Source of the DNA: Tetradesmus obliquus
Lineage: Eukaryota; Chlorophyta; Chlorophyceae; Sphaeropleales; Scenedesmaceae
Assembly: GCA_030272155.1 (NCBI GenBank)
Contig: CP126205.1
Span: forward strand, 484,501 to 548,500
Length of the DNA: 64,000 nucleotides
Direction: 5' to 3'
In this document: positions 1-60,349 of the stretch, in pieces
How positions within the stretch are numbered: position 1 is the stretch's first letter
Layout of the letters: each line of letters opens with the position of its first letter
Notes under the pieces: model-generated
Told to the model about the DNA's origin: nothing
Database searches by the model: none
The model's input: only the letters and a program-made list of their open reading frames with translations
Program-made: the position numbers and the translations under genes

Positions 1-3000
1 GCCCAGGCCCCAGTGGAACACGTAGTACTCCACAGGGTTGGCCGCCAGCAGCGCTGCTGTCTCAGGCATGGCCATGCCCAGCCGCCCTGCGCATGTCACA
101 GAAGTTGCACACAAGGCGGTATGCACAGGTGGCTATGAGAGATTATTGCAGTGCTACATATGCTGTCTCAGGCATGGCCATGCCCAGCCGCCCTGCGCAT
201 GTCACAGCAGTTGCAGGGCAGTTGCAGTTGATGCGGTGTGCACAGATGCCCATGGCATGTGAATGTATCAGGCATGGCCATGCCCAGCCTCCCTGGCGTT
301 GTGCTGTAAGAGCAGTGACAGGCAAGGAAGTAAGCTCAAATCACCAACAGCCACAAGATGCAGGAAGGGAGCTGCAGCTGGACAGTGCGCATCAGGCACT
401 GCTGCTGCAACACATGTTGCCTTGGGCCTGCTTTCATACATTGTTTGCAGTCAATACTGCTAGCTGCGTACGCACCTGCGTAGTGGTTGAAGCCCATTTC
501 GAAGCCAGTGGGCAGGTACTTAGAGCCCAGCACATACTTGAAGCTGTCGGTGAGGTTGGACACCCACGCACCTGCAGCAGCACCGCCAGCAGCAGGAGAC
601 AGGCCTGGCACATACTGCGTGAAATGTTTGATGCAGTGCATGGCAGCAAGTGCAGCAGGCAGGCTGCTGTCTTTCTTTCTGCATTGCACTGAAGTGCGGC
701 AACAGCAACCATGGCAATGCGATTCGGGTGACGCTGCCGACCATCAGCATACAGCTGGTCCTGGCACTGATGCTGCTGCATCTACTTCCTGCAAAACAGC
801 GACACAATTGTGCCTCTGACACACACGCTCCCACCTGTTGTGGTGTTGAAGGCCATCTACAGCTGGCTTGGCCACATGCAGCCTAGGCTGCGGGTGATGC
901 ATCTTGCTGGCGCTGTTCAACATGCAGCATGCTGCCGCTGCTGCTGCTGCAAGCCCCCCACCCCCACCCCACCCCCTTTACAAAAAGTCCTGTGCATTCT
1001 TATGCCTGCGCCTCAAGCTGGCATGCGGGCCCACCTGTTGTGGCGTTGACGGCCAACCACAGCTGGCTGCCCAGGTTGATGCGCCACACGCAGCCCTCAG
1101 GCGGTGGCGGCATGGAATCAAACAGCCGGAAGTTGGGCGGCAGCAGCGACTCATCCGCACCTGCAGGAAACACATTCAAAGCAACCCAGTGGACGACAGG
1201 ATAGTGCCACGCGAGTCAACTGATGCATGGCTACACTGGTATCTGCATAATATATGGTTGCTTATTGGGTCAAAGCTGCTGTCGCAGTGCAGTAACACAA
1301 TCAATGCAGGCAGTCCCTACCTGCATTGACGATGCGTGAATGCACCTCCAGCGCCGCAGCCAGCACGTGCCCGCTGCTGCTGTACAGGTCATCGTCCTGC
1401 TGCCACGCCATCTCTGCGGTCTGCAGCAAGCTTCCCAGACCTGCATGCACACACAGACAGGCAGTTCGATGAGGGTACCACTGGTGAGCGCAACACCACC
1501 AGTGAGATGCCGCCAACATGCAGCCGCTTGACCTGACGCTTACACTATACAGCAGCATTATGGGAGCTGCACCTTCTCAAACTGCAAGCCGCTGTGTGGA
1601 GATATGCGCTGTGGGTGAATGTGCATAGCTGTGGTGACTGTGCTGTTTTGGACCAGCAAGCACAGCCACTCCTACGCATAGCACTGCCACTGCAGCGCCT
1701 GCGCACCAAACAGGGTGTGGTAGATGTCCCTCAGCGTCTCCGTGCTCTCCCCTATCAGCCTGTTGGCGGCCCACCTGCCGCGGCCCCACTTGAGGTAGCC
1801 AGCCACTGTGGTGTGGAACAGCTGCACCGCCCTGTCGTAGCGCGCCCTGTCATCTGTCAGGATGCCAAACGCCATCCAGCACTCTGCAATGCTGGCATGC
1901 CTGCGAGAAAGCACCAGCGTTTGATATTCGTGGTCATCTAACAGTCCATGCCCATCTCTGGTGCGCCTCCAAGGCACATGACGCCGCATTCCAATTGCTA
2001 GTGCAACCTAGCCCTGCCATGTGCATATCAGCTCATGCCAGAGCACTGCTGTGAAAGCTGGCGGTGCATGTATATATGCATGCACACGCACCAGTTGGCG
2101 TAGACGTTGCCATCGTGCCCCCACTGTGGTGGCGGTGTCTTGAAGGCCACCCAGGCATCAGTCACAGGCAGCAGCACACCTCCCATCCAGGCAACAAACT
2201 GCTGGAACACTTCGTCGCTGCCAAATTGCTGCCAGCCTGGGTGGGCCCGCAGCAGCTCCATGGCCCTGCTCAAAGAGGCACAGCCCTGCAGTGCACACAC
2301 AGCAGCAGCCATGCGCAGTTACAAACAGCACAAGGGAGCACATGCTGCTGCACATGCAACACACGGCTTGCACGTTGATACTTCGTGCCACTGCTGACGT
2401 GCTTGCAAGCTGACCATGCCGTGTCTCTGGCTGATGCATTGCTACAGCAACCATAGCACGATCAGATGCTGTTGTAATTGCTTGCATCCCCTGCACGTGC
2501 ACGTAGGACCCTGACAGGAGCTAACCAGCACCTGCTGCTGCACCGCGCCTGCAACACACAACGCTTTTGTTTTCACTCACCCACGCTGCCTCCAGAGCCC
2601 CGTTGCCGTCCATCGCAGGCCCAAACACCTTGTTCACTGCCGCCCAGCCACCCATAATGCGCAGCGCTGTGGCTGCATGCCTGGCATCCCCCGTGGCCCA
2701 AAAGGCCAGCGCCTGCTTAAATGCCATCTGGCCATCCAGCTCCACAAAGCTGACGTGGCCACAGATGTGGGCAGGGGCCCCTGGCGGGTAGTTTGGCGCG
2801 CACTGGCCCTGGCTGGGGTCGTTGAGGCCGCCATACCTGCAGGAACAGCAGCAGCAAATAGCCCATCAGTGCTGTTGCCTATTGGGTTTGGGCAATGATG
2901 AGTGGCTGGCAGTAAAGTTGAAAACGTTCCTGCTTTGCAGATTGCATGCAGGCTGCTCCCCCACGCTGGCCATGCGCCAGCCGCATGCACCCACCTGATG

Positions 3001-3476
3001 AGTGCCACTGGCATCGGGTAGGGCCCTGTGTAGTTGTCTGGCGAGCAGTCTGTTGGGGGCGCCCAGCCGCTGACAGCGTCCATCACTTTGGGCGGCACGC
3101 GCAGCCCAGTCAGCAGGCTGTGCAGCGCCGAGGCCTGCGGCTCTGAACCGCTGCGCAGCTGCTGCAGCATGAAGGCAAGCTCTGCAGGGCCTGCACATGT
3201 GCCGGGATGCATGAAGCCGCTGATGGAGTTGATGCGGCTCCACGCTGCAGCATCAGTAGATATACTGCCGTTATTGCTGCTGCTGCTGCTGCTGCTGCTG
3301 CCGCTGGTGCTGCTTGACTCTGGCGGCAACAAGGGAGCCGCGTCACGTGTTGGCGGTGGTTGTGGCGGTGGCACTGCTGCTGCCTGCAACAGCGCCTCTG
3401 CCTTGATTCTCACAATGGCTTCCTTTGTCAGCACAGGCACAATCTGGTACATCTGGTTCAGCTCCTCTGTAGTTTG

Positions 3477-3543
<67 letters not shown>

Positions 3544-3932
3544 AACGCTGGCACATGGGCCCGTGTGAAGTTAACGCAGCTGCCACTGCTGAACTCCAAG
3601 TTGGAATTGGCAGTCAAGTCTAACCGCAGAACAGGTGGAAGAGGGGGAGGCAGAGGTGTGGTGCTGTTTGTGCTGTTCGCCTGTGAGACGCCCGTCTCAC
3701 TGTCAACAGCAGCGCTGCTATGCACAAGCCGAGGTGCATACATCGCACAGCATGCGCGGAACTCCGTTGCTGAGAAGGGAATGTCGCTGCACATCACTAG
3801 CTGCTGTTGATTGCTGCAGGATGTGGCGTGTGTGCCAGGGTATAGCTGCAATGCCATGCATAGTGGCTGCTTGATCAGCACTGCTGCTACTACGACCACT
3901 GCCAGTGTATAACCTGGGGTGTTCCTCAACAT
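1..3932 (-). CDS. Secreted alginate-lyase-superfamily protein, 3' end beyond the window
   Basis: Eight exons can be joined in phase: 3932-2995, 2836-2581, 2285-2092, 1900-1707, 1440-1321, 1160-1035, 571-476 and 86-1, giving at least 670 residues. The start at 3932 gives a hydrophobic signal-peptide-like N-terminus (TLAVVVVAAVLI). A variable linker follows, with a poly-Ser run near residues 131-151 encoded by a CTG repeat. The domain begins near residue 225 (FMHPGTCAGPAELAFML). It continues with GGWAAVN, ELLRAHPGWQQFG, ASIAECWMAFGILTDD and YLPTGFEMGFNHYAG, and ends with RLGMAMPETAALLA. The HPG start, the GFNHY segment and the MPET segment are the pattern of the PF05426 fold, whose members are polysaccharide lyases. 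A secreted role on uronate-rich wall or mucilage polysaccharide is an inference; the substrate is unknown. The protein is cut by the window edge at an in-phase codon. Introns 6 and 7 carry copies of neighbouring exon ends. Confidence 0.82.
171..297 (-). repeat. Two intronic copies of the start of exon 8 (lyase-like gene)
   Basis: The true exon 8 begins at 86 and reads RLGMAMPET. Near-identical stretches occur at about 171-205 and 270-297, in the same orientation and each preceded on the minus strand by an acceptor-like dinucleotide. They therefore lie upstream of the real exon within intron 7. They are too short to be exons of this fold and look like duplicated splice junctions. Confidence 0.8.
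829..876 (-). repeat. Intronic copy of the end of exon 6 (lyase-like gene)
   Basis: The segment matches the last ~35 bases of exon 6 plus its donor (true junction at 1035). On the minus strand it includes the ACAACAG then GTGGG boundary. It lies downstream of the true exon, in intron 6. One in-frame stop (TAG in place of a Trp-region codon) shows it is not a working coding copy. Confidence 0.75.
3480..3542. repeat. (CTG)n microsatellite inside a coding exon
   Basis: About 20 uninterrupted CTG units lie inside exon 1 of the lyase-like gene. On the coding (minus) strand they are read as AGC and encode a poly-Ser linker between the N-terminal segment and the catalytic-type domain. A second, shorter run lies at about 3276-3301. 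Length polymorphism would change only linker length, because the unit is a codon. Confidence 0.95.
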
Positions 3933-12395: not shown

Positions 12396-12658
12396 CGCGG
12401 TCTGCGCAGCGCGTTGCGGTCGTGTATCACACAACAGATGAACCATGATGCAGTGGAGTCTTGCAGGAACGCGTGGCTGTGGGAACAGTGTGATGGGAGA
12501 CCAGGAAGTGTTCCTGCAAGCACTTTTGTTGGGAGTTCACCGGACACATGGTGGTGTTCCTGCAAGAGTGCGCAGAATCATACAGCTGTTATTGATTGGC
12601 TGGTTGGGTGGCGGTTTTCAGGCTGGTGACTGCTGTATAGCTGTGCACGGGCTGTTAG

Positions 12659-12663
12659 TGTAA
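12659..12663 (+). terminator. Putative TGTAA polyadenylation signal
   Basis: TGTAA, the usual chlorophyte polyadenylation signal, lies 264 bases past the stop of the small three-exon gene. The pentamer is short and can occur by chance, so the evidence is its position only. Confidence 0.35.
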
Positions 12664-16342: not shown

Positions 16343-19300
16343 CTACGCCCTCACAGTGTGCTGCATACCCATGAGCTGCGTGCTGCGTGGCGGCCGCCCC
16401 CGCCGGGTCGGCTTCTTTGCGCCCTGCCGCGCCTGCGCGGCATCCGCAGCAGCAGCGGCCGCCGCCTCGTCCTGCTGCTGCAGCGCAGCCATGATCGTGT
16501 GCCACTGGGGCAGCCAGGGGTAGCTGCTCACGCAGGCAACTGCCATCTGTGAGCCACTAATGATGCTGGTCACGGTGTGCGCAAACACGCCGTCCAAGCT
16601 GGAGTACGCTGCTAAGCTCTTAGAGATCGCCTGCAGCACCTCTAGGCTATGCGCGCGCAGCAGAACCTTGGACACACGGTCTGCTGCCTCCTCGGCCTGC
16701 TGCAGCGCCTTGTACTGCGCATTCAGCGCCAGCCGCTGATCCACCAGGCGCGATAAGCACGCCCCAAAGCGCCGGTAACACGCCAGCGCGTCCTGCCGCT
16801 GCTGCTGGTTCAGCTCCATGGCTTGCAGGACAGCTGCCCACAGGCTTTCTGGCGGCTCTGCTGGCTGCAGGGTTTCCAAACTGCGCTTGTTCATATCGTA
16901 GACCACGCCTTGGCCCTTGGCCACCAGGAAGGGCTGGAAGACTTCACTGATGGCGCTGCGCGTGAGCGCATCCAGCCGCGCATCCGCTGCTGCTGCGATG
17001 GCTGCACAGGGAAGGCAGGATGCGCAGTGGCAGGGCAGGCAGGAGGGAATGAGCACGCTAGCATTAAATGGCAGCAGCACTGCCTTTCAGCAGAAGCTTG
17101 CGCGCAGAGATCAGCACAGCTCCACAACAAAACCCAGAAGCGCACAGCTGAAGCGCGCACACGCGCGCATGCACAAGCACCGCGCAACAAGCACAAAACC
17201 ATGCGCACAGAGCCGCACTCACATACACGCGCGCACACATGTGCCCTCGCATGCAGCCCCAGGCGCGCGCGTATGCAGGCGCAACACGCACATGAAACCA
17301 TGCGCACGCGCGCGCACGCCCGCACACGCACATATCCACTGCGCCTGCTGCTCACCAGGGCCAGCAGAGCTGCGCTGCACCATCTGTGCGTGGCTAACAA
17401 CAAAACACCATATCGACCACCACAACGCTGCATAACACTCAAAAACATGTGTGCGTGTTCATCATGGCTGCTGCTCACCAGGGTCAGCAGAGCTGCGCTG
17501 CACCATGAGCGCCGCGCACACGGCTCACAACAAAATACCATACTGACCACCACTACACTGCATAGATTTCAAATACATGCGCGCGTGTACATCATGCCTG
17601 CCGCTCACCGGGGTCAGCGGAGCTGCGCTGCACCATCAGGGCCTGAGCCTTGCGCAGGAACTCCTTGTACAGCACCACACCCTGCTCGGGGCTGCTCACA
17701 CAGCCCGACAGCGGGCCGGTGTCAACAGCCGCCGCCGCCGCTGCTGCTGCCGCTGCTGCTGCCGCGCCGTTTCCAGCGACGCCGGATGCCTCCAGCGCCA
17801 GTGCTTGCTGCCGCTGGTGTTGCTGCTGGGCATCCGCTGCAATGGCCTGGAGGCTGCTGCTGCCGCTAGCTACCTCTGCTGCATGCTGTTGCTGAAGCGG
17901 GCATGCCTCTGGCAGCTGCTGCGCCTCAGCTGCTGAGGGCTGACCAGGCAGCAGGGCCTGCTGATCCCAGGGCAGCGGCCTATCAAGCAAGCTGCTGCTG
18001 CTGCCGGCAGCATCCAGCCCGGTGCTGCTGCCACTGCCAGTGCTGCCGCTGCTGCGCAGCAGGCTAGCACCCATCCCCGGCGTCCCAGGCGACACCAGCC
18101 CTGCTGCTGCTGCCGCGGCTGCTGCTCCGCTGCTGCTGCGGCTGCTGATGCTGCTGCTGCCGCTGCTGCCGCTCATGCCGGAGTTGTCGGGGCTGCTGCT
18201 GCTGATGCCTAGGCGGTCCACGCCATCAATGAGCTGCATGAGGCCGTGTATCTGCGTGGAGCAGTTAAGGGACGTCTCCAGCACGCGCATCTTGCTCTGC
18301 AGCGCTGCGTTCTCCGCCTGCAGCTGCTGCAGCAGCTCCTGCTTCTCTGCCACCTCTTGCTCCATGGTGGTGATCTGCAGGTGCACACAATGTTGCCACA
18401 GCAGCATGAAATGCTGCGAGCTTGGAGGCGTGTTTGCTCATGAAAAGAAGCATCCGCTGGTATGCTGTCAGCTGCTTGATGAGCATGGTGCAAGTTTGGG
18501 CTGCAGCGGGGTTACCATCTCAACAGGGCACAAGCAACAGGGCTGCACAACACAACATGCACAACATGCACCACAATGTCAAGCGCTTTGTTGCTTGATT
18601 GATGATGTAATGATAATACAGTCCTCAAGCGCAGGCACGCTGCATACTTGAGCACGGAATACAAGACGTACAGTGCATCAGGATCAGAACCATAGCTGTG
18701 CTGCTGGTAATGCCCTGTCCATGTCGCTGCGGCTGTTGCCAGGTGTCAGAGTTTGCCAGGCCAGTGACACTCTGCGATGTGATGAAGCTGCATGCACTGC
18801 AGCAAATGCGCCATCCAGTCCATTGCAACTGCTATAGCAATGCCTGCACTCTCAGCTGCTGGGACTGCAGCACTCCAGCAGCAGCTAGCCATATGCATGC
18901 AAAGACCAGCACTTACATTCTGCTTCTTGCGCTCCCTATAGCGCTTGTGAGCATCTTTCTGTGCCTGACTTTTGTAACGCTTGGTGTTCTTTGGGCGCAG
19001 CTTTTCGTTAAATAGCTTGCTGCTGCTGCCACTGGCCTGTTTACTGCTGCTGCTGCCGCCACCATATGAGGTGCCTTCTTGCTGCTCCAGCTGCTGCAGG
19101 GCAGCACCTGCTGTGCTTGGAAGCAGCTGTGGCTCAGCATCCACAAAGTCCATCATTGCCACCATATCCAGCTCAGGCAACAGCTCTGTGGGTGCAGGCA
19201 CTTGCTGCAGCTGAGAAATGAGCACCTGCGCATCTGGCACAAACTGCCCTTGATATTGCCCAGGAGGAACCAGCTGATCTTCCTCGCTCAAGAGTAGATC

Positions 19301-21227: not shown

Positions 21228-24200
21228 CACCGCAGAGTCAGCAGATGCAGCCACAGCTGAAGCTGAAGCAGCAGCTGCGGAGGCAGCTGCTGCAGCAGCA
21301 GCGCTGGAGAAGCGGGCTGCTGATGCTGCACGGCTAGCTGCTGCAGTGCAGCTGCCGCAGCTGCAGCCGCAGGACCTCGTGCAGCGCACTGACAGCGCAA
21401 TCAGCGACGCTGCTGCAACATCAGTGATGCAGGTGGGCAGGGCGGCTGGTGACACATCTGCAGAGAAGCCCACCATCCTGCACATGTGTGCTGCTCAGGG
21501 TTGTCATGCCTGTGTCGCCAGTTGAGCGCGCGCTGCTGCGCGCACCTGCCTGTAACAGCCGGTGCACAACGCGCAAGCCGCAGGAGCAGCACACGTGCTG
21601 TTCAATTTAATTACTGCTGTCGCTGCGCCCGCTGTTGCTGCTGTGCTGCCGCAGGTGCTGCAGCTGGCGGTGGACACGCTGCGGCCCAACATTGTGGAAG
21701 TCACGCTGGACCTCATCCACAAGCTGATTGCCTTCAGGTGCGCGCAGGCAGTGCTTCTGTGGGTGCTGTTTTGATCGTTGCATTGGCCATGGCCATTGCT
21801 ATTGTCAGGGCCTTGGCATGAGTGAAGCAACCTCAGCTTTTGCCCACTTGCTCGGCAGCAGGCACGTGACGGCACAGCAGGCATGTGAGAGCTTGTCACC
21901 GAGTTCTGCTTGACAGGGTTGATCTGCTTGTGTCCACGCGGGACATCATGTGTTTGCTGAGCAGTGGTGTGCATGGGCTGCCTGTCTATGTATGCACAGG
22001 TACCTGCAGGGCGCAGCGCACAATGTGCAGGCAGACCGGCACGACGAGGACGCAGCAGGCGACAGCAAGCAGCCCAAGTCAGCAGCAGCCGAGGCAGCGC
22101 AGCAGCTCACGCCACAGGCACTGGCGGTGCAGCTCATCTGCCGCTGTGATGAGATCCCTGATGAGGGTGTGGAGGTGCTGGTGCTGCGCGGGCTGCTCAC
22201 TGCCAGCACCAGCCTCACTTTTACAATACATGGGCAGGCGCTGCTGCTGGCGGTGCGCACGTGCTACAACATCCACCTCATGAGCCGCAGCGAGGTCAAC
22301 CAGACAACTGCAAAAGCGGCGCTGACGCAGATGCTCAACGTGGTGTTCCAGCGCATGGAAGCAGGCAGCGTGAGGGTGGCGGTGAGTTCCCCTGCGCCGG
22401 TGCTGGCAGCAGTTCGCTGCTTTCGTTACCGTACGTGTACTTCAAGCAAGTAGCGCTGTACGTTCGCGCAGCAGGCTGCGCATCAACTGTTGGCTCACCT
22501 CTTGTGCGTCCCTGCAATCAAACTCCTTGCCTGTAGTGCAACCATTGTGAGGGATGGGCCGCTGCGCTGCCGCTGCTGCTTGCTCCTCCAGATGAAGCCT
22601 ATCACTGTGGCAGACATGCTGGGGCTGTATTTCAACTGCTGTGCCTTATAAAATTCGCCTGCTGCGCTGCTGCTGCTGCGTTTCATTTGCTTGCTCCTCC
22701 AGGTGAAGCCCATTGCTGTGGCAGACATGCTGGGGCTGTCCAACCCAGCCAAGTCCAGCGCGGCTGATGCCAGCGGCGTCACCAGCGCCGTGCAGGGCTT
22801 TTTGAACAACGTGGTGGCAGCAGCAGGCTACGGCGCAGCAGTAGAGACGCACCAGCAGCTGAAGCAGAGCCTCACGCGAGCCATCCTGGCTCCCAGGCAA
22901 TCCACAGATCTGGGGGATGGCGGCGCAGCAGCAGCAGCAGCAGCAGCAGGGGGTGGCGACAGTGCCAGCCAGCAGCAGCAGGAGCCTGTTGTGGTGGTAA
23001 CGGGTGAGGTGTCAGATGATGAGGAGGATGAGGAGCGAGGCACATTCCACCTGGCAGGCAGCGGCGGCAGCGGCAGCCTCCCTACATACAGCAGCAGCGG
23101 CACGCCAAAAGCCGCGGCTGGCGCAGCTGCAGCGGGCGGCGCAGGCGGTGCAGCAGCATCGCAAGTGGGTGGCGCAGCAGCTGCTGCGCCGCATGGTGCT
23201 GTGGTGCTGCCAGCTAGTGTGGCGCTGCTGCACAAGGATGCGTTCCTGGTGTTCCGCGCGCTGTGCAAGCTGAGCATCCGCACCAGTGACCTGGTGACCG
23301 TCAGCGACCCCACCGCAGTGCGCGGCAAGGTGAGGCGGCTGCGTGGCGGAAGGCAGTGCACCGCTGCCCACACTGCCACAGTTTCGGTCATGTCCAGCTT
23401 GCTATCCAGGGTCGCACTCGTAAGTGCTGCTCTCATATGCCGCCATCAACAGCGTGCACTCTCATGTTAGTGGGAATCATTGTGTCGCACCCGCGCAACC
23501 TCCTGCCGTTCCGCTCTTGTAACAATGTAACACTTTTCAAACCGCCTGCGCGACAGCTGCTGGCGCTGGAGCTGCTCAAGGTGCTTCTGGAGAACAGCGG
23601 GCCCGCCTTCAAGGCCAGCGAGCGCTTCACCGCAGCCATCCGGCAGTACCTGTGCCTGTCGCTGCTCAAAAACAGCGCCAGCAGCATTCCTGCAGCGCTG
23701 CAGCTGTCAGCCAGCATCTTTCTGAGCCTCCTGCAGAAGTTCAGGGCTGCGTTGAAAGCAGAAGTGGGTGTGTTCCTGCCCATGGTGGTGCTGAAAGTGC
23801 TGGAGCCGCCTGCTGCTGCTGGTGGGGCCGGCGGCGCTGCTGCTGCTGCAGCGGCTGCGGCGCAGACGAGCCTTGCTGTCAACTCGTACAGCTACAAGTG
23901 AGGAGGGTCTTGCTGCCGCATTTGCTGCAGCTATTGCAGCGCGTGATGTTATTTGTCGTGATGCAGATGCTGTCAGCATGAGTGCACAAAAGATGAGCCA
24001 GCAGCAGGCCTGCATGAGTGGCTGTTGTGTCAATATGCTTGCAGGACTTTTAGGCTGCACGTTACAGATGGCTTTGCCACCCTTCTTTCTTTTGATCACG
24101 CCCTGCGGCAGCTTTGACCTATCAATTACGTAGTGCGTGCTTGCTGTTGCGTGCTGCGGCTGCGCTGCAGGGTGGTGGTGCTGCGCTGCCTGCGCGAGGT

Positions 24201-27200: not shown

Positions 27201-30200
27201 TGCTGCACCGCTGCAGGCCGAGAGTGCTGAGCCCAGCGATGACGCCATCAAGCGCACGCTGGACTACCTGCACGACCGGGCGCAGGGCGCCACCTACTTT
27301 GTGGCCAGCGACCCAGGTGGGCGGCTGCTGCACTGTTGTGCGCCTTTTGATTGCATGCATGTGTGCTGGATGTCTGCTGGTGGTGCGGCTTCTGCCTGCG
27401 CGTATGGATAGCCACGTGAAATTAGGGTGATTGAAGCACAAGCAGCATGGTGGGCAGCACCTGCAGCTGCCAGCAGGCAACTTTGCACTGGTGTTGGGCC
27501 ATCCTGCGCCACCATCCCACTACCTGCTGGCTTCTGCATGCTGCTGCACACTAGCATGCGTGCGCGCAGATTCGGCCATGCACCTCATGCTGCTGCTGTT
27601 CATGGTGCCATTGGCTGTCCCCCCAAGCTTCGAAAACCTTCTGCTGACACCTCAACCTTGCTGCACGCTGCTGCTGCTGCTGCTGGGTCCGCAGACACGG
27701 TGCGCCCCATGCTGGAGCTCATATGGGCGCCTTCAACTGCCCTCTATCACCGTACAAACCTCGTCCTAACACCTCACCCTTGCTGCCTATTGCTGCCGCT
27801 GGGCCTTGCAGACACGGTGCGCCCCATGCTGGAGCTCATCTGGGCGCCGCTGCTGGGCTGCTTCAGCCTGCTGTTTGACGAATACTCCGACCCGCGCCTG
27901 CTGGCCATCTGCCTGGCGGGCTTTGAGGCAGCCACCTGCCTCGCTGCGCAGCTGGGCGTGGCTGATCTGAGGGACGTGTTTGTTGTGAGCCTGTGCAACT
28001 TCACGCACCTGCACAGCCCCGCCACCATGAAGCCCAAGAACGGCCTGGCCTTCAAGAGCCTGATCAGCGTGGCGCTGCAGGTCGGGGACCACCTGGGGGA
28101 GAGGTGAGGGGTGGTGGAGGAGGTGTGCACTGGTGATTATGATGCAGGATGATCCGGTACTGTGTGTGCGTCGGTTGCGCAAGTACCTTCTGCAACGGGC
28201 AGGCTTGTGGGCAGGCCTTCCTTGCAAACAATGTGTTGGGTTTGAGTGTGCGTCGCTAGCTGCTGTGTGATGGTGGTCTGCTGCTGCTGGCTGGCCTTCA
28301 AGAGCTCATCAGCGTGGCGCTGCAGGTCGGGGACCACCTGGGGGAGAGGTGAGCGGCAAGGCGTGCAGCGGCGTGTGAATGCAGACGAGCATCAGCCGTT
28401 GCTGGGTGCGCAGTGGCTGCCGGGGCTTGATTGATACTGCGGTTGCAGCGCGCACAAACTTTGTGCGCTGAATACGCCCTGCATTGTCCCTGGGCTCGCC
28501 TTAATTCTAAACAACGTGCCCCCAGCTGCAGCTGTTATATTGCTTGATCAGCGTGGCGCTGCAGGTTTGGGACCACCTGGGGAAAGGTGAGCGGCAAGAC
28601 GCGCTGCTGCGATTGCATTTGCACCTGCAGAGGGGTATCAGGTGGTGCTGCGCATGCTATCTGCTGTGGTTGCAGCACGCTCAGGTCTTGTGCGCGAGGC
28701 TCGAGCCTCCTGGTGTGTTTAGGCCTTCCCTGCAGGCAATGTGATGGTGAGTGGGGAGAGTAGCGCTGCAGGCCAAGACCACCTGGGGGAGAGGTGAGGG
28801 GTGGTGGAGGAGGTGTGCACTGGTAGTGATGATGTAGGATGAGCATGTGCCATGTGTATGCGGTATGTACCGTGCGCGCGGACTTGGCACCGCCTGCAGT
28901 GTGTAGGCCTTCCTTTCAGACATGTGGTTTCAAGTCGGCGTGTGTCGTCTGCTGCAGTGTGATGGTGGCCTGCTGCTGCCCCTGCTGCTGTTGCTGCTGT
29001 TGCTGCTGCTGCTGCCAGGTGGCTGGAGGTGCTGCGCTGCATCAGCCGCTGGGAGCTGCTGCAGCAGATTGCCAGCGGCATGCCCACAGACGCCGTGCTG
29101 TTTGCAGCGGCAGGGGAGAAGGCGGGCGGCAAGGGCAGGGGCAAGGAGCAGCAGGCCACACGGCTGAGCGCGGCTGCAGATGCGGCAGGTGCAGGTGCGC
29201 TGGGCTGGCTGCAGTTGCTGATAGCGTGGGCTGAATTACATGTGTGTTACTTTCAAGCCTGCTTTTAACAAGAGGCAGCGGAGCTAACAGCTTGGTGCTG
29301 CCTTGCTGCATGTGAGTGCTGTGGTTTCTGTCGTAACGTGATGTAATGGATCGCACTGAACAACCGTACATCTGCTGCTGCTGCTGCTGCTTCCAGGTGG
29401 CGCCAAGTCGATGGACACCATGGCCATGAGCGAAGCCTCCATCAAGCGGGCACACATAGGTGAGCGCAGCGGCTGCGTGTAACACGCAAGGCTGGCAGCA
29501 TGAAATGGGCATGTGTAGTGACAATCCAACAATCGACATCACTTGCTGCATGCAGACACAGCTTGAGCTTGCTGTAGCGCTGCCTGTGCAAGCTGGGGAC
29601 CTTTTTTGTTTTGCCTAGGCGCAAGGCACTATAAATGGCGTGTTTCCTGCAAGTGTACTTACTGTTGGTTCTCCCAGCTTCAATGCTGGCGGCTGTCGCA
29701 ATCTACTCTGTATTGCTGCTCTGTCGCTGCGACCTGGCCATGCAGGCGCTGGCAAGGAGGAGGGAGTGGCGGTGCACCCAGAGATCATTAACAGCGTGGA
29801 CACCGCACAGCTCAACAAGGTGAGGCTGCGCCACGACAGCGCTACGCTGCAGGCAGCTGCAGCTCCAACCCGCCAGCTGCTTCGCGATCATGCTGCATGA
29901 GAAGCGATGCGATGCAGGGTGTAGAAGCCTTGCGCATTTACAGCGCCACAGCAGCATGCGGACCACTCTGCTTGCACTCAGTGGTCCATCGGCATGTGGC
30001 GTTTGTGTTGTGGGCTGCAACTGACATTTTGCCGCTCCACTGTGTGCTGTCTTCCCTCTGCCCCGGTAGGTGTACGTGTCCTCACGGCTTGACAGCGGCG
30101 CCATCGTGTGCTTTTGCAACTGACATGCTTTTGCCCCACTGTGCTGGCTATGCGTTGTGCTGCAGGTGTATGTGTCGTCCTCGCGGCTGGACAGTGATGC

Positions 30201-33085
30201 TATCGTGGCCTTTGTGCGCTGCCTGGCGGCCATCAGCCTGGACGAGCTGCGGGACGCGCGCGCACCCCGCGTGTTCAGCCTGACCAAGATTGTGGAGATC
30301 GCGCACTTCAACATGGGCCGCATCAGGTGAGCCTGGCACAGCAGTGTGCTGGCTTCGCTCACAGGGGTGATGTGCAGCTTACGCATCCAGCCCTTCAGCA
30401 GATCCTGCATGCCAGTTTGACCATGGACGCTGCGGCTTGCACCTGAGCCACTGCTGCGCTTGGCTGCCGCACAATCGCAGGCTGGTGTGGAGCCGCATCT
30501 GGCGGTGCTGTCGGCCTACTTTGTTGTTTTGATATCCCCACTGCTGCTGCGGCTGCTGTGCTGCTCCCTGCCTGCAGGCTTGTGTGGAGCCGCATCTGGG
30601 CGGTGCTGTCCGCCTACTTTGTGACGGTGGGCTGCGCCCCCGCGCTGCCTGTGGCGATGTACGCGGTGGACAGCCTGCGCCAGCTGTCCATGAAGTTCCT
30701 GGAGCGTGACGAGCTGGCCAACTACACCTTCCAGAACGACTTCCTGCGGCCCTTCGTGGTGCTCATGCGCCAGAGCACGGTGAGTGTATGCGTGTGTTGG
30801 GGAGGGAGAGGGGGATGGGGAGGGGGGAGGGGCGCTGCACATGCTGCCTGTAGCTATGGCTGGTGCCAGCTGCTGTGGGCGATGTGAGCTGTGACGCATG
30901 ATAGATGCCTGCAGCTGCTGTGATTAGTGCCGGTTGTTGCTGGCTGCTGTTTGTCGACTCGTCACACCTCTGCCTTGCTGATGCTTCCCTTCCTGCAGGC
31001 TGTGGAGATCCGCGACCTCATCATGCGCTGCCTGAGCCGCAATTCTCAGCTTTTACCATTGCTGACTGAACTGTGCTTGTCACGCATCTGCCTTGCCGAC
31101 GCTTCCCTTCCTTTCCATAGCTGTCTGAACTGGACTTGTCATGCCTCGGCCTTGCCAACGCTCTCCTGTGTCTGCCCTTGCTGCAGGCTGTGGAGATCCG
31201 CGAGCTCATCATCCGCTGCCTGAGCCAGATGGTGCTGGCGCGCGTGAACAACGTGAAGTCCGGCTGGAAGAGCATGTTCATGGTCTTCACCACGGCAGCG
31301 GGAGACCCAGACCCCACCATTGTGCGCCTGGCCTTCGACACCATCGAGAAGATTGTGCGCGAGCACTTCGGGCACATCACGGGTGCGCTGGCTGCTGCCC
31401 TTCATGCAGTGCTGTGCATGATAGAGTCTGTGCAAGCAGGGCAGGGGGGAGATTTATGGTGGCAAGGGTTGCAGCATGAGCAGAGCGGTTGGCCAGTTGC
31501 ACGCTATGGTGCTGCAAATCAACTGTTGCTGGCCATCAGCGCCCTGTAGCGGCGTCACCAGTGCCCCTGCTTGCCTGCCGCTGCTGTTGCTGCTGCAGAG
31601 ACGGAGACCATTAGCTTCACCGATTGCGTGAACTGCCCCATCGCGTTCACCACTGCCCCTGCTTGCATGCTGCCGCTGCCGCTGCTGCTGCTGCTGCCGC
31701 GCCTGCTGCCGCCTGCTGCTGCAGAGACGGAGACCACCACCTTCACCGACTGCGTGAACTGCCTCATCGCGTTCACCAACAACCCGCACAGCATGGAGGT
31801 GGCGCTCAACGCCACTGCCTTCCTGCGCTACTGCGCCACCAAGCTGGCGGAGGGAGCCATCGGGGAGCTGCCGGAGGCGCTGCCTGGCGGGGTGGTGCAG
31901 GCGGAGCGGCTCGCACCCACGCGCGTGGTGAGCGGTGCTGGCGTTGTGTTTCCAGAAAGGAATTGGTGTGCAGGTTGTAGTGCGTGCTGCAGCGCCAGTG
32001 GTTTGCATATTGTATCTGGTCTGTGCTGTTTTGTGTGTTTCTTGCTTGTGTGCCTGCCGGATGAGAAGTGCCCCCTGCACCATCAAGCTGGCGGAGGGGG
32101 CGATAGGGGAGCTGCCCGAGGCGCTGCCTGGGGGCGTGGTGCAGGCGGAGCGGCTAGCGCCCACACGCGTGGTGAGCGGCGCGTGGACGTGTGGCGTGTT
32201 GCTGGGTTATTCATGCTGTTTGTTGTTGCATGCACTGCCCGGGGTTGTGATCGGCGCAGCGGTTGGCACCCACACGCGCAGTGAGTGTGGATGCTGAGCG
32301 CAAGGGCATTGCAGTGGAGAGTTGTAGTGCGTGCGTGCATGCTGTTGGGCCAAAAATGCTGATGCTCTGTGGTCAGCATGGTGTTTTGCGTCTGGCTTGT
32401 GTGTGCTGGAAGCTGAATAATCAAGCTGGAAGCTGCAGTGTGCCATCAGGGTGTAGTAGTGCATCAACTGGAGTGCAATCAGCATGTTGATGGAAACCGA
32501 TCTTTGATCAGTACGACACCTCACTGCTGCCTGCATCGTGTGCGCCACGCCATGCCGCAGGTGGCTTTGGACCAGCAGCGAACCGCAGCAGAAGGCAGCA
32601 GCAGCAGCAGCTATGCAGCAGGCAGCTCCTCAGCCTCGGGTGCTGCTGCAGGCGCAAGCAGCAGCAGCAGCGAGCGCGGCCAGATGAAGTTTGTGGACCG
32701 TGATGAGCACGTGTACTTCTGGTTCCCGCTGCTGGCTGGCTTGAGTGAGCTCACCTTTGACCCGCGGCCAGAGATCCGCCGCAGCGCGCTGGAGGTGGGT
32801 AAATTATCAACCCGTATGGTTATGCATGATTCCAAGTGCCCTTGCAGTTGCCGTGGCATGCGTAGTGCTCAAAAGCCTGTGCCGGTTTACCTGGCATGCG
32901 CAGGAGTGCGCGGCAGGTGCACATTGCAGTTTGAGCAGCTCGTGCACGTGCTGCGCCGTCTGGCGCTGGTCACCAGGGTTACATGCGGGTGCTGCTGGGT
33001 GTGCCGGCAAAGTGCTTGGCTGTAATTTTTCTCGTACACAGCAAGACCCGCGGCTGCAAGTCAGGGGGCTGCTTGCATCGATTCG

Positions 33086-33151: not shown

Positions 33152-36100
33152 ACATCTCAGCCAGGGTGCTGTCTCCTCTGCCCGATGTGCCGCCCCGCAA
33201 GTGCTGTTTGACGTGGACCCTTGGTGGCAAGGAGAGGGGCTGCTCACACCAGCTCTTCTGTTGCCGCTCCAATTGCTGCTTACACACATGATCTCCAAAC
33301 TGTTGCCACGCCGCAGGTGCTGTTTGATGTGCTGATGACGCATGGCGGCAGCTTTGCGGAGAGCATTGTTATTTTTGGCTCACTTAGCCGACATCGATGC
33401 AGCGGGATCATTTGTGTCGTGTTGGCTGTTGCGATTTCACTATTGCCGCGCACGTGCTGTTTGATGTGCTGATGACGCACGGCGGCAGGTTCGCGGAGAG
33501 CTCTGATATGTGGCTCACTTGGCCGACAGTCAATGCAGCGGGGATCATTTGTGTTGTGTTTGCTGTTGCGATCGCCGCGCCGCAGCTGCTGTTTGATGTG
33601 CTGATGACGCATGGCGGCAGTTTCGCAGAGAGCTTACATATGTGACCCAATTGGCCTACATTAAATGCAGCGGGGATCATTTGTGTCGTGTTTGCTGTTG
33701 CGATTGCCGCGCAGGTGCTGTTTGATGTGCTGATGACCCATGGCGGCAAGGAAGGGGGCTGTTCGCACCTGCCCCTCTGTTGCGGCTCCAATCGCTGCTT
33801 ACACACGTGTTCTGCGAATTGCTGCCGCGCCGCAGGTGCTGTTCGATGTGCTGATGACGCATGGCGGCAGCTTTGCGGAGAGCTTCGATGTTTCGCTCAC
33901 CTGGCCGACATCCAATGCAGCGGTGCTCACTTGTGTCGTGTTTGCTGTTGTGATTGCCGCGCAGGTGCTGTTTGACGTGCTGATGACGCATGGCGGCAGC
34001 TTTGCGGAGAGCTTCTGGGCGCGCATCTTCGAGCGCGTGCTGCTGCCCATCTTCGACCACGTGCGCGCAGAGGTGACCGACACCACCACCTTCACCAGTG
34101 AGAGGAGAAGAGCGCAGGAGGACGCGTGGCTGTACGAGACCTGCACACACTGCCTGCAGGTGCGCAGGTTGCCAGACATCGCGCTGCTGTCGACTGCTGT
34201 GCTTAGAATGCTTTGCATGCACCACTTGTACCTGCAGCGCCGCCCAGACGTATATGCAGCACCCACGGCTAAAACTCATGAGGTGAATTAAAAATTCTGG
34301 CTCTGTTTTAGCCTGTCTTCCTCTACTCTGCGTACATAATCACGCATTCACGACAACGTGTCATCCCTGCCGCTGGCAACTTGTCCGTCTACACGCACAG
34401 CACCTGGTGGACCTGTTCGGCCAGTTCCACGAGCCCATGGGCCCGCTGCTGCCACTCTTCAACTTGCTTTGCATGCACCACTTGTGTCTAAATCGCTGCC
34501 CAGGTGCCTTTGCAGAACCCCACGGCCGCAATCTCCCAGGCACATTGTAGCTGAAGCTCTGTATCCGGTTAAAACACTCTGTTCATGTATTCAAGACGGT
34601 GTTTCATCCCTGCCGCTGCTAAACATCACCGGTGTCCCGCGCAGCACCTGGTGGACCTGTTTGGTCAGCTCCATGAGCCCATGGGGCCGCTGCTGCCATC
34701 TGTTGTGCACGCACGCCTTTTGTCCTGCACCACTGCACAAGTGCATTTTAGCACCTCGCGGCTGCAGCGTCGGGAGGTTTATGTTAGCTACTAGCGCCGC
34801 ACTTTTTGTCTCCTGCTACTCTGCATGAGTGCCCACACCAATGTATTACGGCCGCTGCCAACTTCACCGCAGCACCTGGTGGACTTGTTTGGCCAGTTCC
34901 ATGAGCCCATGGGCCCGCTGCTGCCACGCCTGCTGGAGCTGCTGCGAGGCTTCATCGCGCGCAGCCACGCCAGCCTGGCCAGTGTTGGGGTGGCTGCCTA
35001 CACGCGGCTGCTGGCCAGCTGCGGCGGCCAGCTGGACGATGAGGCCTGGCAGCAGGTGGGCCATGATGTTTCCACAGCTTGCTGCTACTGCTGCTGTGGT
35101 TGCATGCAGCCAGGAGCGATACGCTGTAGGTGTGTACTAGGACGAGTAGGCATGTACAACCGTTATCACCTGCTGGGTCTGTAATTTTGCTGGTCAACAT
35201 CTCCTTGCACTGTTCTGGCTGCGGGTATGCAGGTCATCGGCATGCTGCAGCAGGTCATGCGCGACACGCTGCCAGATGCAGTGGAGCTCGTCACGCCGCC
35301 GCTGCGCGCAGCAGGCAGCACAGACGTACAGGCACCCGGCACACCCCTAGCAGCAGCAGCAGCAGCAGCAGGCGCCTCGTTAGCTGGCGGGCAGCCGCGG
35401 CCGCCGTACTCGCTGCGCGAGGGCGTGGGCATGCGGCGGCTGGTGAAGTTCCGGGTGCAGGCTGGCGTGCAGCTGCTGCTGGTGCAGGCGGCCTCGGAGG
35501 TGTATGCGCAGCACTACCACCACATGGCGGTGAGTGTGGTTGTGCAACATTGTAGTGGTGTAGAGCTGGTGCAGCAGTTGGCGTGGTTGGGTGGGCACTG
35601 CCATGTGTATGTGCAATGTGTAGTGTCGTGTTTGGTGGGGTTGCTGTCTGGCTGCAACGCATCACTTGCATAGTGTTGCTGAGGGACGCCCCATCATTCT
35701 TCGTGCTTTGGCTTTTCAATCATCTGGAGCGCAGCGCAGGCACCAGCGCATCACTAGTCACTCAGTGACTGTCGCTAAGCGCTGACACATTGTGCACCAC
35801 TGCTGCATGGCTGCTGCTTTCACTCCTGCAGCTGGGCGCCATGTGTTGCTGGCAGATGCGCTGCAGCAGGTCTCTTTGCCACAGTCACTTAGCGCTGACT
35901 GTCTCTGCACCGCTGCCGTTACGCCTGCTGCCACCGCCACTGCTTTCATCCCTGCAGCCTGGCGCATGTTACTGCTGGCAGATGCGCTGCATCAGGCCTC
36001 TTCGTCATAGTCGCTTACCGCTGACTTCTCCTGCACCGCTGCCGTCACGCCTGCTGCCACTCCTGCAGCCGGGCGCCATGTTCCTGCTGGCAGACGTGCT

Positions 36101-36746
36101 GCAGCAGGTCTCTTTTGTCACAGTTGCTTAGCGCTGACTGGTTCTGCACCACTGCCGTTACGCCTGCTGCCACCGCTACTGCTGCCACTCCTGCAGCCGG
36201 ACGCCATGGTGCTGCTGGCGGACGCCTTGCAGCAGGTCTCGCAGCACGCGCGCGCTGCCAACACCGACATCGGCCTGCGCAAGCGGCTGGCAGCCCAGCA
36301 AGCAGCAGACAGGGTGCCCGAGGAGCGCTGCATCCCTGACCCGCCGCTGCTGCGTCAGGAGGCTGAGGCAAGCCACGCGTACCTGTCGGTGCTGATGCAC
36401 GTGGCCAGCAGCAGCGGCGGCAGAATTCCTGGCTGGGCTGGGGCACAGCAGGCGGCGCAGGCCATGCAGGTGTGTGCGGCGTTACATTTGTGCTGTGTGC
36501 ATGGTGGCAGGCAGCATAGGTGTGGCTTCCAGGCACAATACAGCATCACGAGATGTGTTGTAGAGTTGTGGTTCTCGCCGTGTGTTGCCGGTGCAAGACA
36601 CGGGGCCTGTTCTGTTTAAGCCGTACCAATGCTATGTGCTGCCGTGCCACACGCTGTGCTGCGCCGCAGGCATCTGAGCGGCTGGTGGCGCTGTCATATG
36701 CAGTGCTGGAGCGCTTCGGGCTGGGCACAGATGCAGGCAGCAGCAG

Positions 36747-39065: not shown

Positions 39066-39600
39066 CACAGAGAGCGCAACCAACCGCGTGCGGTGAGTCG
39101 CAGTAGTAGTAAAGCAGCAGCTCACAGGGTGTATGAATGTATTTTGCAGGCAACGCAGCAGACAGTGCCTGGCATGCACACTGCCAAAGCGAAAGAGTAC
39201 AACACGACAGCAACAAGGCAAGTGCTCAAACAAGCAGCACCAACCACAACACACCACGTGCCCTGGCAGCAACTAAACAAAGGTTGTGTGCCTGAACGCT
39301 TTGGGTGTGCCGCTGCCTTGCTCATCAATGCACTCCAGTTGTACAGAACGCGCAATCAACCGCATGCGGTGAGCAGTGTACTTGTAAAGAAAGCAGCTCA
39401 CAGGCTGTATGAATGTATTTTGCAGGCATAGCAGCGCAGCAGACAGTGCTTGGCATGCGCACTGTGGCCCACAGTGACGCAGTGAAAGGTATAACACGAC
39501 AGCAGCAGGGCAAGTGCTCCAGCAGGCAGCACCAACCACAATACACAACGCGCCCTGAGGCAGCAACCAAACAGAACTCGACTGCGTGCACGCGTGACCT
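39066..39600. repeat. Imperfect ~280-bp tandem duplication
   Basis: Two blocks, about 39066-39292 and 39347-39595, share long stretches in the same order: CGCAACCAACCG with TGCGGTGAG, AAAGCAGCTCACAGG, TGTATGAATGTATTTTGCAG, GCAGCAGACAGTGC and GCAGCACCAACCACAA. The conserved ATGAATGTATTTTGCAG and GGTGAGC could be an acceptor and a donor, so this may be a duplicated exon-intron unit of an unknown transcript rather than simple sequence. Confidence 0.8.
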
Positions 39601-41299
39601 GTCGCTGTCTTGCTCACCATAAACGCACTCCATCTGTACTTGCCTCACTCGCTGCAACAGGGTGCGCCAGGCGCGTGGCAACGTTGGAGCAGAGCAGACA
39701 CGGCATTACGCAACACCAGGTGCATGCTGAGACTCCTACAATGGTGCATGACCAGCTAACAGCACACATGTGACGCACGCGGTGGTTGTTTTGTGTTAGG
39801 TTTTATGCATGATCCGTGCCAGGCGGGTGACACCCACAGTTGACCAGCACATGACAAGAGCGCCCACCCACACAGCCGCAAATGGGGTATGCTGACCTGT
39901 ACAGCCGCCAGCTGCAACAACTGCCTCACACCAAACACACGTGTATGCCAGCATAGCCACAGCGGCAGCCATGGCATCCTGCAGGCGACAGCGTTTACAC
40001 ACCGCAGCGACCACAGAACACAATCTGGTTACAGCCGGCGCGCTGCACCGCCCGGCTGCCTGGTAATCCCAATGCAGGTGGCAGGCAGAGACCACACACA
40101 CAGCAGCAACCGTTTTGGTGAAGCGAAACAATTGCCCAGGGCTGCACACCCCCCTGCTGCAGACAGACCACACACGTCTCTTCAGCAGACACTACAAACA
40201 CTAGCAACACAGCCGCATGCTCAACAATAAACCTGGTTGCCTGCTGGTGTACCATCGTCGTCGCATTTGCAGGCCCACGGCAGCACTGCATGCACCTGCA
40301 CAGCATGACGCACGCTGCACCCTTCCAGCGCGCATGCTGCTGATCAAGTGCCAGTTTTGTGCAGGAAGTGCGCCCTGCAACCTGCTTAAGAAGCCTAGCC
40401 AGTGCTACGCTGCCTGCAGGGATGCAGCATGTTGTGCTGCCCAGCCAGCTGCAGGCGTGGAGGCCCGGCTGTGCTTGCACACGTTGCGCTGCACCCTGCT
40501 CGGCTTTATCGCCAATGCGCAGCATAACAACACGCGTGACGCGTCCTACTAGGAAACAAGCTCGGCAGCTGGTAAATATGCATCCAGTGCAACAGCAGCC
40601 TCTGAGAGGACCGCAATACTGAGGAGCTAGTCCAGCAGGCCAGGTTCTAGCTTTTCCCGAGCCCTTTGACCTGCACGCGTGGCACAAGTGTGTGTGCCAG
40701 CCGCCGCCACAGCTGTCCTGCTCACATCAGCAGCACACCAGGCACACCTGCCCTGTTGCAGACAACTAACGACAACCAGCATCACTGCACTGCAAGCAGC
40801 ACCCGCAGCAATCCTCCGCATGCCCTGCGTATGAAGTCTTCATAGAAGCAGCCAAAGAGCTCTGCATGCGTTCATTGCTGCAGCACCAACAGACAGCTGC
40901 ACAAGCCAGGGCCACAACTGCATGTACCTGCCATAACATGCACGCGCCATAATCTGCCCATAATCTGCCCAGCCATGGCCCACTTTCCCCACAAGCGCAT
41001 CCCTGTGCACACTTCTTTTTCAGCCATGCATGCATTGAGACCTTGCCACATGCAACAACGCCCAGCGCCGGACAAATTGATGTGACAGACAAGCGACGTC
41101 CGAAGTCCCACCCCTGCCCCCAAACTCTTTCACATGATCTCGCGAACCATGTTATGTTCAATCAGCAGCAAACCCCGCCCTGAAGATAAGCCAGAACCCA
41201 GCACAATCGTACCACGTTGCTTCGCAGCACACAGAGAACCATGCCCACCCACAGCAGCAAACCAGCCAGCTGCCTCTGCAGCTGTGCCAGAATCACAAT

Positions 41300-41304
41300 A
41301 GCAG

Positions 41305-41337
<33 letters not shown>

Positions 41338-41845: not shown

Positions 41846-43763
41846 GAGGCAACTCCAGCCACCAGGGCAGGGCGTACACATGGCCCTGCATGGCAGCCAC
41901 TGATGCCGGCAGGTGCTGCTGCTTGAAGCGCAGCCGGCAGCCGCGCTCAATGAGGAAAGTGGCGTACACAGACGCACACGACAGCAGCACCTGCACGCAC
42001 GGGGCAGCGCAAGGGTTCTTGCCTTGTGACTCGTGTGTGTGCACTGTACATATGTCGATCATCATGCAGCTGGCACACTGCAGCGAGGAAGCCAGCCAGC
42101 AGCCCTGACGTGACAGCAGGACACCGCTGGCCGCACAAATAACGATTGTTGCGCAGCAGTGCGACTTGAACGGCCAGGGCCTGAAGCCTCAAGTGTGTCT
42201 CAGTGCTTGGCATACTGTTCACTTATGCTGCTGGTGGCGCTGCGCAAAAGGCCTGTGCTCGCATGCTGACACTGCACGCTGCTGCTGCGCCGCACCCGCA
42301 TGTTGCCTACATTGCACTCTGCCGCTGCTGCCCACCTGCACGCTGCGTACATTGCACGCTGCCGCTGCTGCGCACCCGCATGTTGCTTACATTGCACGCT
42401 GCCGCTGCTGCCCACCTGCATGCTGCTGACCGTGGTGCTGCACACAGCGAGCGCAAGCGCCGGCTGATGCAGCTTGCGCCTGAACACGCCAGCCGCCGCT
42501 CTGTCGAGTGCTGCTGCCAGCCGCCGCCACGCCGCTGAGTCAGCAAAGGGCCCAGCCAGCAGCTGGCTGCAGGAGGGGCGCACAGTGGACCTGAGCACTG
42601 TGAGGCCCACCAGAGAGTTGATTGCAGCTGCAGAGGCAACACGCAGCGACGCAGGAAGGCAGCAGCAGCAGCAGGGTGCGGCACGGAGGAGTTCACAGCT
42701 CTGTAGCATCAAGAGACATGCGAGTTTGAAGGATGATAAGCGTGGAATCTGACACTGCTGCGCAGCCAGGCTGCAACTGATGTGGGCAAACCGCCATGCT
42801 TTGTTTTGACACACAATGCTCTGCTGCCGCTGCACGCTCGTGGTGCTTGGGTGCTGCAGCTCGTGTCACGCACGCATTCGCTGCTTTGCTCTGCTGCTGG
42901 CCACGCACCTACACGCCAGCCATCCAGGAAGAACAGCGAGCCCACAAAGTTGTGCAGCGCGCCCGTCTTCACCAGCAGGTGCAGCACCGCAGCTGACACG
43001 GGTCCGCTCGGGTGCCCGGCCCTGACTGCAAACTGCTGAACGTACGGCAGGGTCAACATACGCCGTGCAGTGGTGATGGCTGTGCGGTGCTTAGTGTAGA
43101 AGTCTGGGTACCGCCAGTGCAGCGCAAGCGCCAGCACGGCTGCCAGGCAGCACAGAGCTGTCAGCATTTGCAGCAGCGACTGCGATGGTGCAGTGGCCCA
43201 GCACGCAAGCCATATGACCAGGTCCAGGGGCAGAGACACGTTGTCGAAGGCCTTGAAGTTATAGTTGACGTGCCTGTGTAGCGTGGAGCGCAGCAGGCAG
43301 CCAGGCACAGCAGCAGCACAGGCACAGCAGCAACAGCATGCTGTCAGGCTCCAGCACAGCACAAGCGCACGATATTGGAACTACATGCACAGCAGCTGAT
43401 GCTGAGCTTCGACGAACAGGCTATCTGGGTTTGCCCTGAGATCAGGCAGTGCAGCAACAAAAGCGTTCGCGAATGGGCCCACCCGAAACACGCACCGCCT
43501 GACGGGGAAGCTCAAGGCTGTGCGGTGCTGTTGTGCTGTAGACAGCCAAACAGACTAACTCACCATTTTTGGAAGGCTTTGTCCACGAACCAGGGCCTGA
43601 AGGACATGTCAAAAGGCAGAGTAGAGCTCCAGGCGTGCTTGCTTTGAGAAACATGTTGGCACACCGCCTGCCTCACTGCCGGACGATCTACAGGATCGGT
43701 GCTGTTACGGGCTTTGCAGGAGGCCTCGGCAGCCTCGCACGAGGCCTGCGTGGGCTTCGCCAT
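41846..43763 (-). CDS. Uncharacterised membrane protein (3' end unresolved)
   Basis: Exon 1 at 43763-43564 starts with MAKPTQASCEAAE and ends WFVDKAFQKW. It splices in phase to 43273-~42913, giving HVNYNFKAFDNVSLPLDLVI, then hydrophobic stretches (TALCCLAAVLALALHW), YPDFYTKHRTAITTARRM and HNFVGSLFFLDGW. A third exon ends at 42416 (INSLVGLTVLRSTVRPSCSQ...VSSMQ). Its start is ambiguous (about 42624 or 42690) because two donors and two acceptors fit. Likely further exons are near 42200-42090 (ALAVQVALLRNNRYLCGQRC) and 41999-41846 (VLLSCASVYATFLIERGCRL). I see 3-5 possible membrane segments but no known family motif. The C-terminus is not placed. Confidence 0.5.
42262..42425 (-). repeat. Short tandem repeat spanning an exon-3 donor (membrane-protein gene)
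   Basis: Four units of ~41-44 bases lie side by side, each with GCCGCTGCTGC, then CCACCTGCA or GCACCCGCA, then a GTACATTGCA-type segment. The first unit on the minus strand holds the proposed donor of exon 3 (CAG then GTGGGC at 42416). The rest repeat this junction downstream in the intron, the same geometry as the exon-end copies in other genes. Confidence 0.75.

Positions 43764-48815: not shown

Positions 48816-60349
<11,534 letters not shown>

Follow-up and report, generated by a model that had tools for sequence, protein, structure and literature searches.

The terminal parts of exons in the DNA of Tetradesmus obliquus analysed here recur, in the same orientation, inside the introns that adjoin them. 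Such copies, called echoes below, were found at 70 of 858 exon ends in 314 kb (score of at least 28), as against a mean of 0.6 of 858 and a maximum of 1 when introns were swapped (10 repeats), 1 of 858 when the reverse complement was searched, and 3 of 406 when an exon end was compared with the intron beyond the opposite end of its exon. The reading that we favour, and to which we would give a little less than even chances, is that introns are enlarged by tandem duplications spanning their splice junctions, and that the exon-derived parts of the copies stay alike through sequence exchange with the exon. A first-pass annotation of the window, i.e., the whole 64-kb stretch of DNA presented above, had claimed that at least 20 exon ends have copies in the adjoining intron, upstream of exon starts, downstream of exon ends, and always in one orientation; 25 echo-bearing exon ends were found there, and the scan of exon ends against their flanking introns that it had proposed, carried out on the 314 kb, gave the counts above and with them the same geometry. 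Any junction-crossing tandem duplication that leaves the mRNA intact gives such a geometry, so that the rule alone is no discovery; the non-trivial feature is the rarity of repeats that lack a junction.

The analysed DNA consists of the window, located on contig C15, and a further 250 kb sampled on C1, C2, and C9, together 0.3% of the genome (104.66 Mb, 17 contigs); the GC content is 57–58% across the sample, consistent with the value tabulated for T. obliquus (PMC5966456), and N is absent from all of it. Gene structures are predictions of a small purpose-written hidden-Markov gene finder, which used neither an annotation nor a relative. It converged on the donor CAG^GTG(A/C)G and the acceptor CTGCAG^G (the caret marking the junction) and returned 47 genes with 639 introns, of which 429 remained after removal of introns shorter than 70 or longer than 1500 bp and of those adjoining predicted exons of less than 36 bp. 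An echo was defined as a same-strand match of an exon-only 60-bp query to the adjoining intron with a score of at least 28, and a stricter set at score 40 comprises 49 events. For the splice-pair test and the profile of homology around the junction, events with a distance d between copy and exon of 75–160 bp were restricted to those with less than 60 bp of homology past the junction (30 of 33); for spacing and composition, a limit of 30 bp on that homology and a spacer of at least 35 bp were imposed (29 of 33). Of the 50 single-copy junctions, 39 were usable in the analysis of flank erosion and 40 in that of spacer likeness, while one junction with twelve copies was left out of the analyses of codon positions, spacer likeness, and alignable flanks.

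Echoes occupy 58 of the 429 introns, 20 of them among the 97 of the window, 20 among 124 in C1, 14 among 145 in C2, and 4 among 63 in C9; the window is thus rich in them but not unique, and the echo load varies among genes beyond chance (p 0.014). There are 107 copies over the 70 exon ends, and 50 of these ends have a single copy. The 25 echo-bearing ends of the window fall in four predicted gene models, one of which is probably two fused genes, and not in six genes as had been stated. Among near repeat pairs in the 314 kb, 147 are direct and 4 inverted, array pairs being counted several times. Pieces of exon taken 70–130 bp from the junction matched in 4 of 464 cases, as compared with 47 of 464 for the terminal pieces of the same exons. 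The copy lies 82–158 bp from the exon in 33 of the 49 stricter events and 182–682 bp in the remaining 16; in the 29 filtered events d has a mean of 117 bp (SD 17), the exon part measures 26–72 bp, and the spacer 41–104 bp, four array cases with a spacer below 35 bp having been excluded. The spacing of 100–140 bp described earlier as typical agrees with these values. Echoes were found at none of 44 predicted starts and none of 44 predicted stop codons, a result that is no more than suggestive, as the predicted ends may be wrong.

Same-strand repeat pairs are present at all 11 places of the window that the first-pass annotation had listed. On the plus strand, echoes of exon starts lie at 22593–22628 (exon from 22703, intron 22382–22702; 92% identical, d 111), at 27695–27731 (exon 27812–28103), where homology continues into the intron, and at 30481–30525 (exon 30578–30779; 94% identical, d 97), and the end of exon 27812–28103 has two echoes, at 28291–28349 and 28542–28582. 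A direct pair, 31573–31652 and 31701–31778 (88%; 31573–31778), is mostly predicted exon and was therefore unscored as an echo. Two tandem arrays on this strand occupy 33216–34013 (period 132, 5.5 copies), with exon end and start around 33317–33367 and 33836, and 35814–36240 (period 126, 3.5 copies), which contains exon starts. An array on the minus strand at 17343–17636 (period 130, 2.3 copies) crosses the junctions at 17383 and 17609. It is also worth recording a 276-bp direct duplication (76%) at 39067–39639, where the gene model is unreliable, and a 40-bp repeat in four copies, mostly predicted coding, at 42269–42426.

The remaining loci of the window lie on the minus strand between 48831 and 60349, within the model of a P-type Ca2+-ATPase gene, a model that also takes in the gene that follows. 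They comprise an array at 49036–49359 (period 91, 3.5 copies; exon start at 49076), echoes of exon ends at 49650–49712 (exon 49774–49920; d 124, flank unlike) and 50199–50250 (exon 50297–50394; d 103), an array with a period of about 181–228 at a predicted exon end of the ATPase gene (50731–51480), an echo of an exon start at 53571–53635 (motif-bearing exon 53291–53494; d 141), in which the copy alters one motif residue, an array with a period of about 114 at exon ends of the ATPase gene (54668–55674), and an array with a period of 208 (57230–57737), in which two extra copies contain the PEGLPA-coding exon end, the donor, and the start of the intron. In the array at 51875–52706, a 62-bp unit is repeated in 11.9 copies that are 98% alike, each with the start of exon 51734–51904 and its acceptor, a further copy of the unit lying at 52669–52698; this is the most homogeneous array of the window (51875–52611) and is perhaps variable between strains.

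Judging from alignments of three echo-rich genes to solved proteins, we take the copies to be intronic. In the gene for pyruvate dehydrogenase E1 alpha, residues 98–426 align to a solved protein and span all four of its echo-bearing exon ends. In an aspartokinase-homoserine dehydrogenase, an echo that was predicted as a small exon is part of an insertion in the kinase half, and the other half has a match to a solved protein in the hit table. The Ca2+-ATPase model in the window has three consecutive PEGLPA segments, where the homologue aligned has a single one. Several echo copies were called exons by the gene finder, and their resemblance to small exons calls for caution in gene finding.

Echo-bearing introns are long by a whole period. 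Their median length is 410 bp (41 introns), as against 256.5 bp for echo-free introns (378); subtraction of the period brings the former to 263 bp (p 0.16), and subtraction of the copy alone leaves 345 bp, still above the echo-free value (p 6e-5). An event thus adds the copy together with its spacer. Homology ends 3–16 bp beyond the junction in 34 of the 49 events. In 13 donor and 17 acceptor echoes, the 20 exon bases next to the junction show an identity of 0.86–0.91; past the junction identity is 0.69 over the first six donor bases, the value expected for unrelated splice sites also being 0.69, and 0.70 as against 0.76 expected at acceptors, both then being near background. In the 29 filtered events the strand composition of the spacer resembles that of the true intron start or end.

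The favoured reading may be set out as follows. A short tandem duplication across the junction would involve a unit that is typically close to 117 bp long and to which exon and intron contribute about equally; the working splice site would stay with the copy joined to the exon body and the other copy would turn into intron, so that the intron gains one unit and the mRNA is unaltered. The intron part of the unit is mostly at least 40 bp long, presumably so that the exon-attached copy retains a complete splice site. Arrays would grow and shrink through unequal pairing between copies. The exon end, fixed by protein selection, would keep exchanging sequence with its copies, through gene conversion or unequal pairing, and the intron parts, free of selection, would drift apart; where a locus has two copies, exchange between spacer and outer flank would cease once these had diverged.

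Repeats that lack a junction are rare, although units of such a size, if placed at random, are predicted to cross a junction 1.35 times for each one that falls inside an intron. With BLAST, pairs within introns turned up in 8 introns, every one of them echo-bearing, and interior repeats in none of the 371 echo-free introns. Of the interior windows, 25 of 108 from echo introns and 2 of 480 from echo-free introns reached the exon-end score, the same 480 giving 3 with the reverse complement and 1 with swapped introns, as compared with 63 of 588 exon ends matching in the same set of introns, those of at least 220 bp. Duplications without a junction do occur, as seen from an echo-free C9 intron (index 372, block L022–L026) with a real interior repeat of score 89. 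Tandem arrays with a period of at least 60 bp, their units standing head to tail, number 15; a predicted junction lies in 14 of them and the 15th is built of exon-tail copies, a count that is inflated since some copies were labelled exon by the gene finder. Ten of the 15 have a partial terminal unit of 0.3–0.5. Copies of one junction tend to share their exon-side edge, which agrees to 3 bp or better in 18 of 34 pairs (chance, 14%), and in 10 of 26 after removal of the 8 in which the exon or the query ends there. An extreme case is C1 33180–33760, where an exon and three echoes make up four 36-bp exon tails, 97–100% alike with identical edges, separated by spacers that are mostly unlike.

It has also been considered that splice junctions are themselves the target, in that a splicing- or transcription-coupled process duplicates about 117 bp at the junction and, by repeated rounds, is a main source of intron growth, affecting some ten thousand introns. 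We regard this wider claim as doubtful, while giving it appreciable weight; the figure assumes that the 250 kb outside the window are typical of the genome. Such targeting could, for example, come from breaks or switches of template at places where the gene is paired with its spliced RNA, or where the polymerase pauses at exon ends, and any link to splicing or transcription is putative.

The copies diverge from the exon by 0 to 21%, the single-copy echoes at near one rate (chi2 61.9, df 49). Gaps in copies shift the frame in 26 of 28 cases and 5 stops occur within 870 codons; the splice site is kept as GT in 10 of 13 and as AG in 13 of 17. Eight of the 39 single-copy echoes look like plain tandem duplications across the junction and 31 have an eroded intron flank, so that the earlier statement that the repeated unit includes intron plainly applies to the former, while the flank is nearly unalignable in the latter. 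The exon part nevertheless differs by 10.6% (89% identical) in the 31 eroded echoes and by 8.5% in the 8 alignable ones. When eroded flanks were compared with other pieces of the same intron, p was at most 0.5 in 28 of the 31 and at most 0.05 in 6 of the 31 (KS 9e-6); we take this weak similarity and the intron-like spacers to be remnants of intron sequence within the duplicated unit. A likeness of the first and last spacers, seen in a few multi-copy arrays, was dropped, the farthest copy being the best in 3 of 17.

In the 20 copies with an alignable flank (flank score of at least 18), divergence in the exon part is 6.0, 4.4, and 16.4% for first, second, and third codon positions, and that of the intron flank is 12.4%, about twice the 5% of positions 1 and 2, the flank figure being capped by the selection. 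Positions 1 and 2 stand to the flank as neutral decay of copy, flank, and flank copy predicts, and position 3 is high. These copies fit a plain tandem duplication across the junction with neutral decay alone thereafter, from which the geometry and the added length come automatically. As an account of the whole, such a course is unlikely: in 31 of the 39 single copies the flank is near chance beside an exon part 89% identical, several echoes are 96–98% identical with sharp edges, and the rarity of interior repeats is left unexplained. In C1 62911–63283 (L008:2911-3283), which holds three 121-bp units, units 1 and 2 have six differences over 68 bp of exon (five of them third-position changes, the sixth CTG/TTG) and a single one over 53 bp of intron; this greater change in the exon part is not explained by neutral decay, and it speaks against the favoured reading as well. 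The first-pass annotation, which had proposed junction-crossing duplication followed by decay, is supported as to the duplication, the use of the exon-attached copy, and the enlargement of introns; its plain decay fits the copies with alignable flanks but not the majority, whose intron part is almost unalignable.

The survival of the exon-derived part beyond the intron part is most simply explained if the exon end exchanges with its copies. We infer that tandem duplication is the origin of the eroded majority too and that exchange may be what keeps its exon part alike, although no exchange event was directly seen. Stretches of 26–72 bp are short for ordinary gene conversion. The lack of echoes at stop codons, which the favoured reading would allow, speaks against it, as does an excess of differences at third positions, which exchange would not lead one to expect: the ratio is 2.63 between exon and copy (95%, 2.10–3.35) and 2.50 between intron copies (1.73–5.08), while a neutral-copy simulation gave 1.7 with a maximum of 2.43 (60 runs, rate 0.06). 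The excess hints at an origin of the copies from once-coding sequences, e.g., on other haplotypes, or else at faster mutation of third positions; the coding-like differences may be due in part to composition, so that the pattern is no proof of function.

Diverged haplotypes or strains, with exons alike and introns unlike, could have recombined in such a way that a second, once functional exon end was put behind the first. Besides the third-position excess, both between exon and copy and among copies, this would account for the splice sites kept in copies, the unlike spacers, and the nearly uniform divergence of single-copy echoes. We consider it distinctly improbable, as the frameshifts and stops in copies show decay, the plain tandem class has the same codon pattern, neither d near 117 bp nor the common edges are explained, and at two loci neither the exon end nor the spacer was found again in a genome-wide search.

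An artefact of assembly or polishing, by which two haplotypes were joined where like exons meet unlike introns, would fit edges centred on the junction and a unit shorter than the reads, and a single assembly was examined. It is very unlikely in view of the frame-shifting gaps (26 of 28), an array of 12 units, divergences ranging from 0 to 21%, the N-free 314 kb and the 17 contigs, and the lack of echoes at predicted coding ends (0 of 88); introns are long in the UTEX393 assembly (1,368 scaffolds) too, with a mean of 462 bp, the longest for T. obliquus among five algae tabulated (PMC5966456), a figure that bears on intron length and not on echoes.

Use of the copies as alternative exon ends, now or recently, would account for their kept splice sites and for the third-position excess. 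It is highly improbable, given that the partner site at the opposite edge scores at control level, that a usable internal pair is present in 1 of 30 events, that copies contain frameshifts, and that the insert is missing from aligned homologous proteins. Cassette or duplicated exons were likewise rejected, the partner splice site being no better than in the control and the frame broken, and the AGGT model of intron gain was set aside because a donor and acceptor pair with scores like those of real sites was present inside copies in a single one of the 30 events.

Least probable of all is a templated insertion during break repair that copied the exon end alone, with unrelated filler as the spacer: it would suit the majority with sharp edges and unlike spacers, but direct pairs outnumber inverted ones by 147 to 4, the flanks are weakly alike, and the spacer has the composition of an intron end.

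A mobile element or introner in the spacer was unsupported, no dispersal of exon ends or spacers having been found: the genome-wide search of two echo loci gave no second copy of the exon end or the spacer elsewhere, and 29 spacers searched against the 314 kb had, among the matches listed outside their own array, none longer than 47 bp or stronger than E 4.7e-6. A different part of one of these two queries is a dispersed repeat, which lies beside the pyruvate dehydrogenase E1 alpha gene, at L003:1210-1324, with 19 matches of 76–96% on many contigs.

Intronic minisatellites undergo concerted evolution and resemble the arrays of 60–230 bp units described here; unlike them, these arrays go with splice junctions, and the majority of loci have two copies with an eroded flank. 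The core-Reinhardtinia belong to another order than T. obliquus. Like it, they are chlorophytes with conspicuously long introns, the driving mechanism of which is left open in an account that, in the portion consulted, describes no echo pattern (PMC8226300). A single case of tandem duplication across an intron-exon boundary was described in a potato RdRp gene (PMC4974935); there as here, the duplicated stretch spans an existing boundary and brings splicing signals along, but a new intron and a new exon arose in potato, whereas in T. obliquus the old intron absorbs the copies, at 70 of 858 exon ends. The model of Rogers, intron gain via tandem duplication of an AGGT exonic stretch (as described in PMC4974935), shares with our favoured reading a local direct duplication near a splice site and an unchanged mRNA, and differs from it in that a usable splice pair was present in 1 of 30 events and the copy lies inside an existing intron; novel introns from tandem duplication have also been described in Drosophila (PMC2891723). 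New Daphnia introns have direct repeats of 4–12 bp, left by staggered breaks, at the opposite end of the intron, and a passive drift to longer introns was proposed in the same work (PMC4202315); these repeats, too, are shared by an intron and its neighbouring exon, but those of T. obliquus are 26–72 bp long, mostly about 117 bp away, and in longer introns. Duplication across a junction is thus on record in single cases; in the open-access literature searched, no account was found of a pervasive pattern of exon-end copies by which existing introns are enlarged. Junction-crossing duplication may be one route of intron growth, and a recognisable growth step in 58 of 429 introns would make intron lengthening directly testable.

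The P-type ATPase domain PF00122 has 43 exon-level matches over most contigs, and this large family could offer the same introns with and without echoes. An exon of ctpA in the same genome is identical in 89 of 89 residues to PDB 1FC6, the photosystem II D1 protease of Scenedesmus (now Tetradesmus) obliquus, in keeping with the source of the DNA. At C1 87351–87648 (C1:2087351-2087648; L010:7351-7648), the two members of a 72-bp pair, 94% alike with d 226, both contain AAG^GTGGGC, and a predicted 208-bp intron spans from copy to copy; an intron may have been gained here through tandem duplication, or the pair may be a duplicated coding end with its stop.
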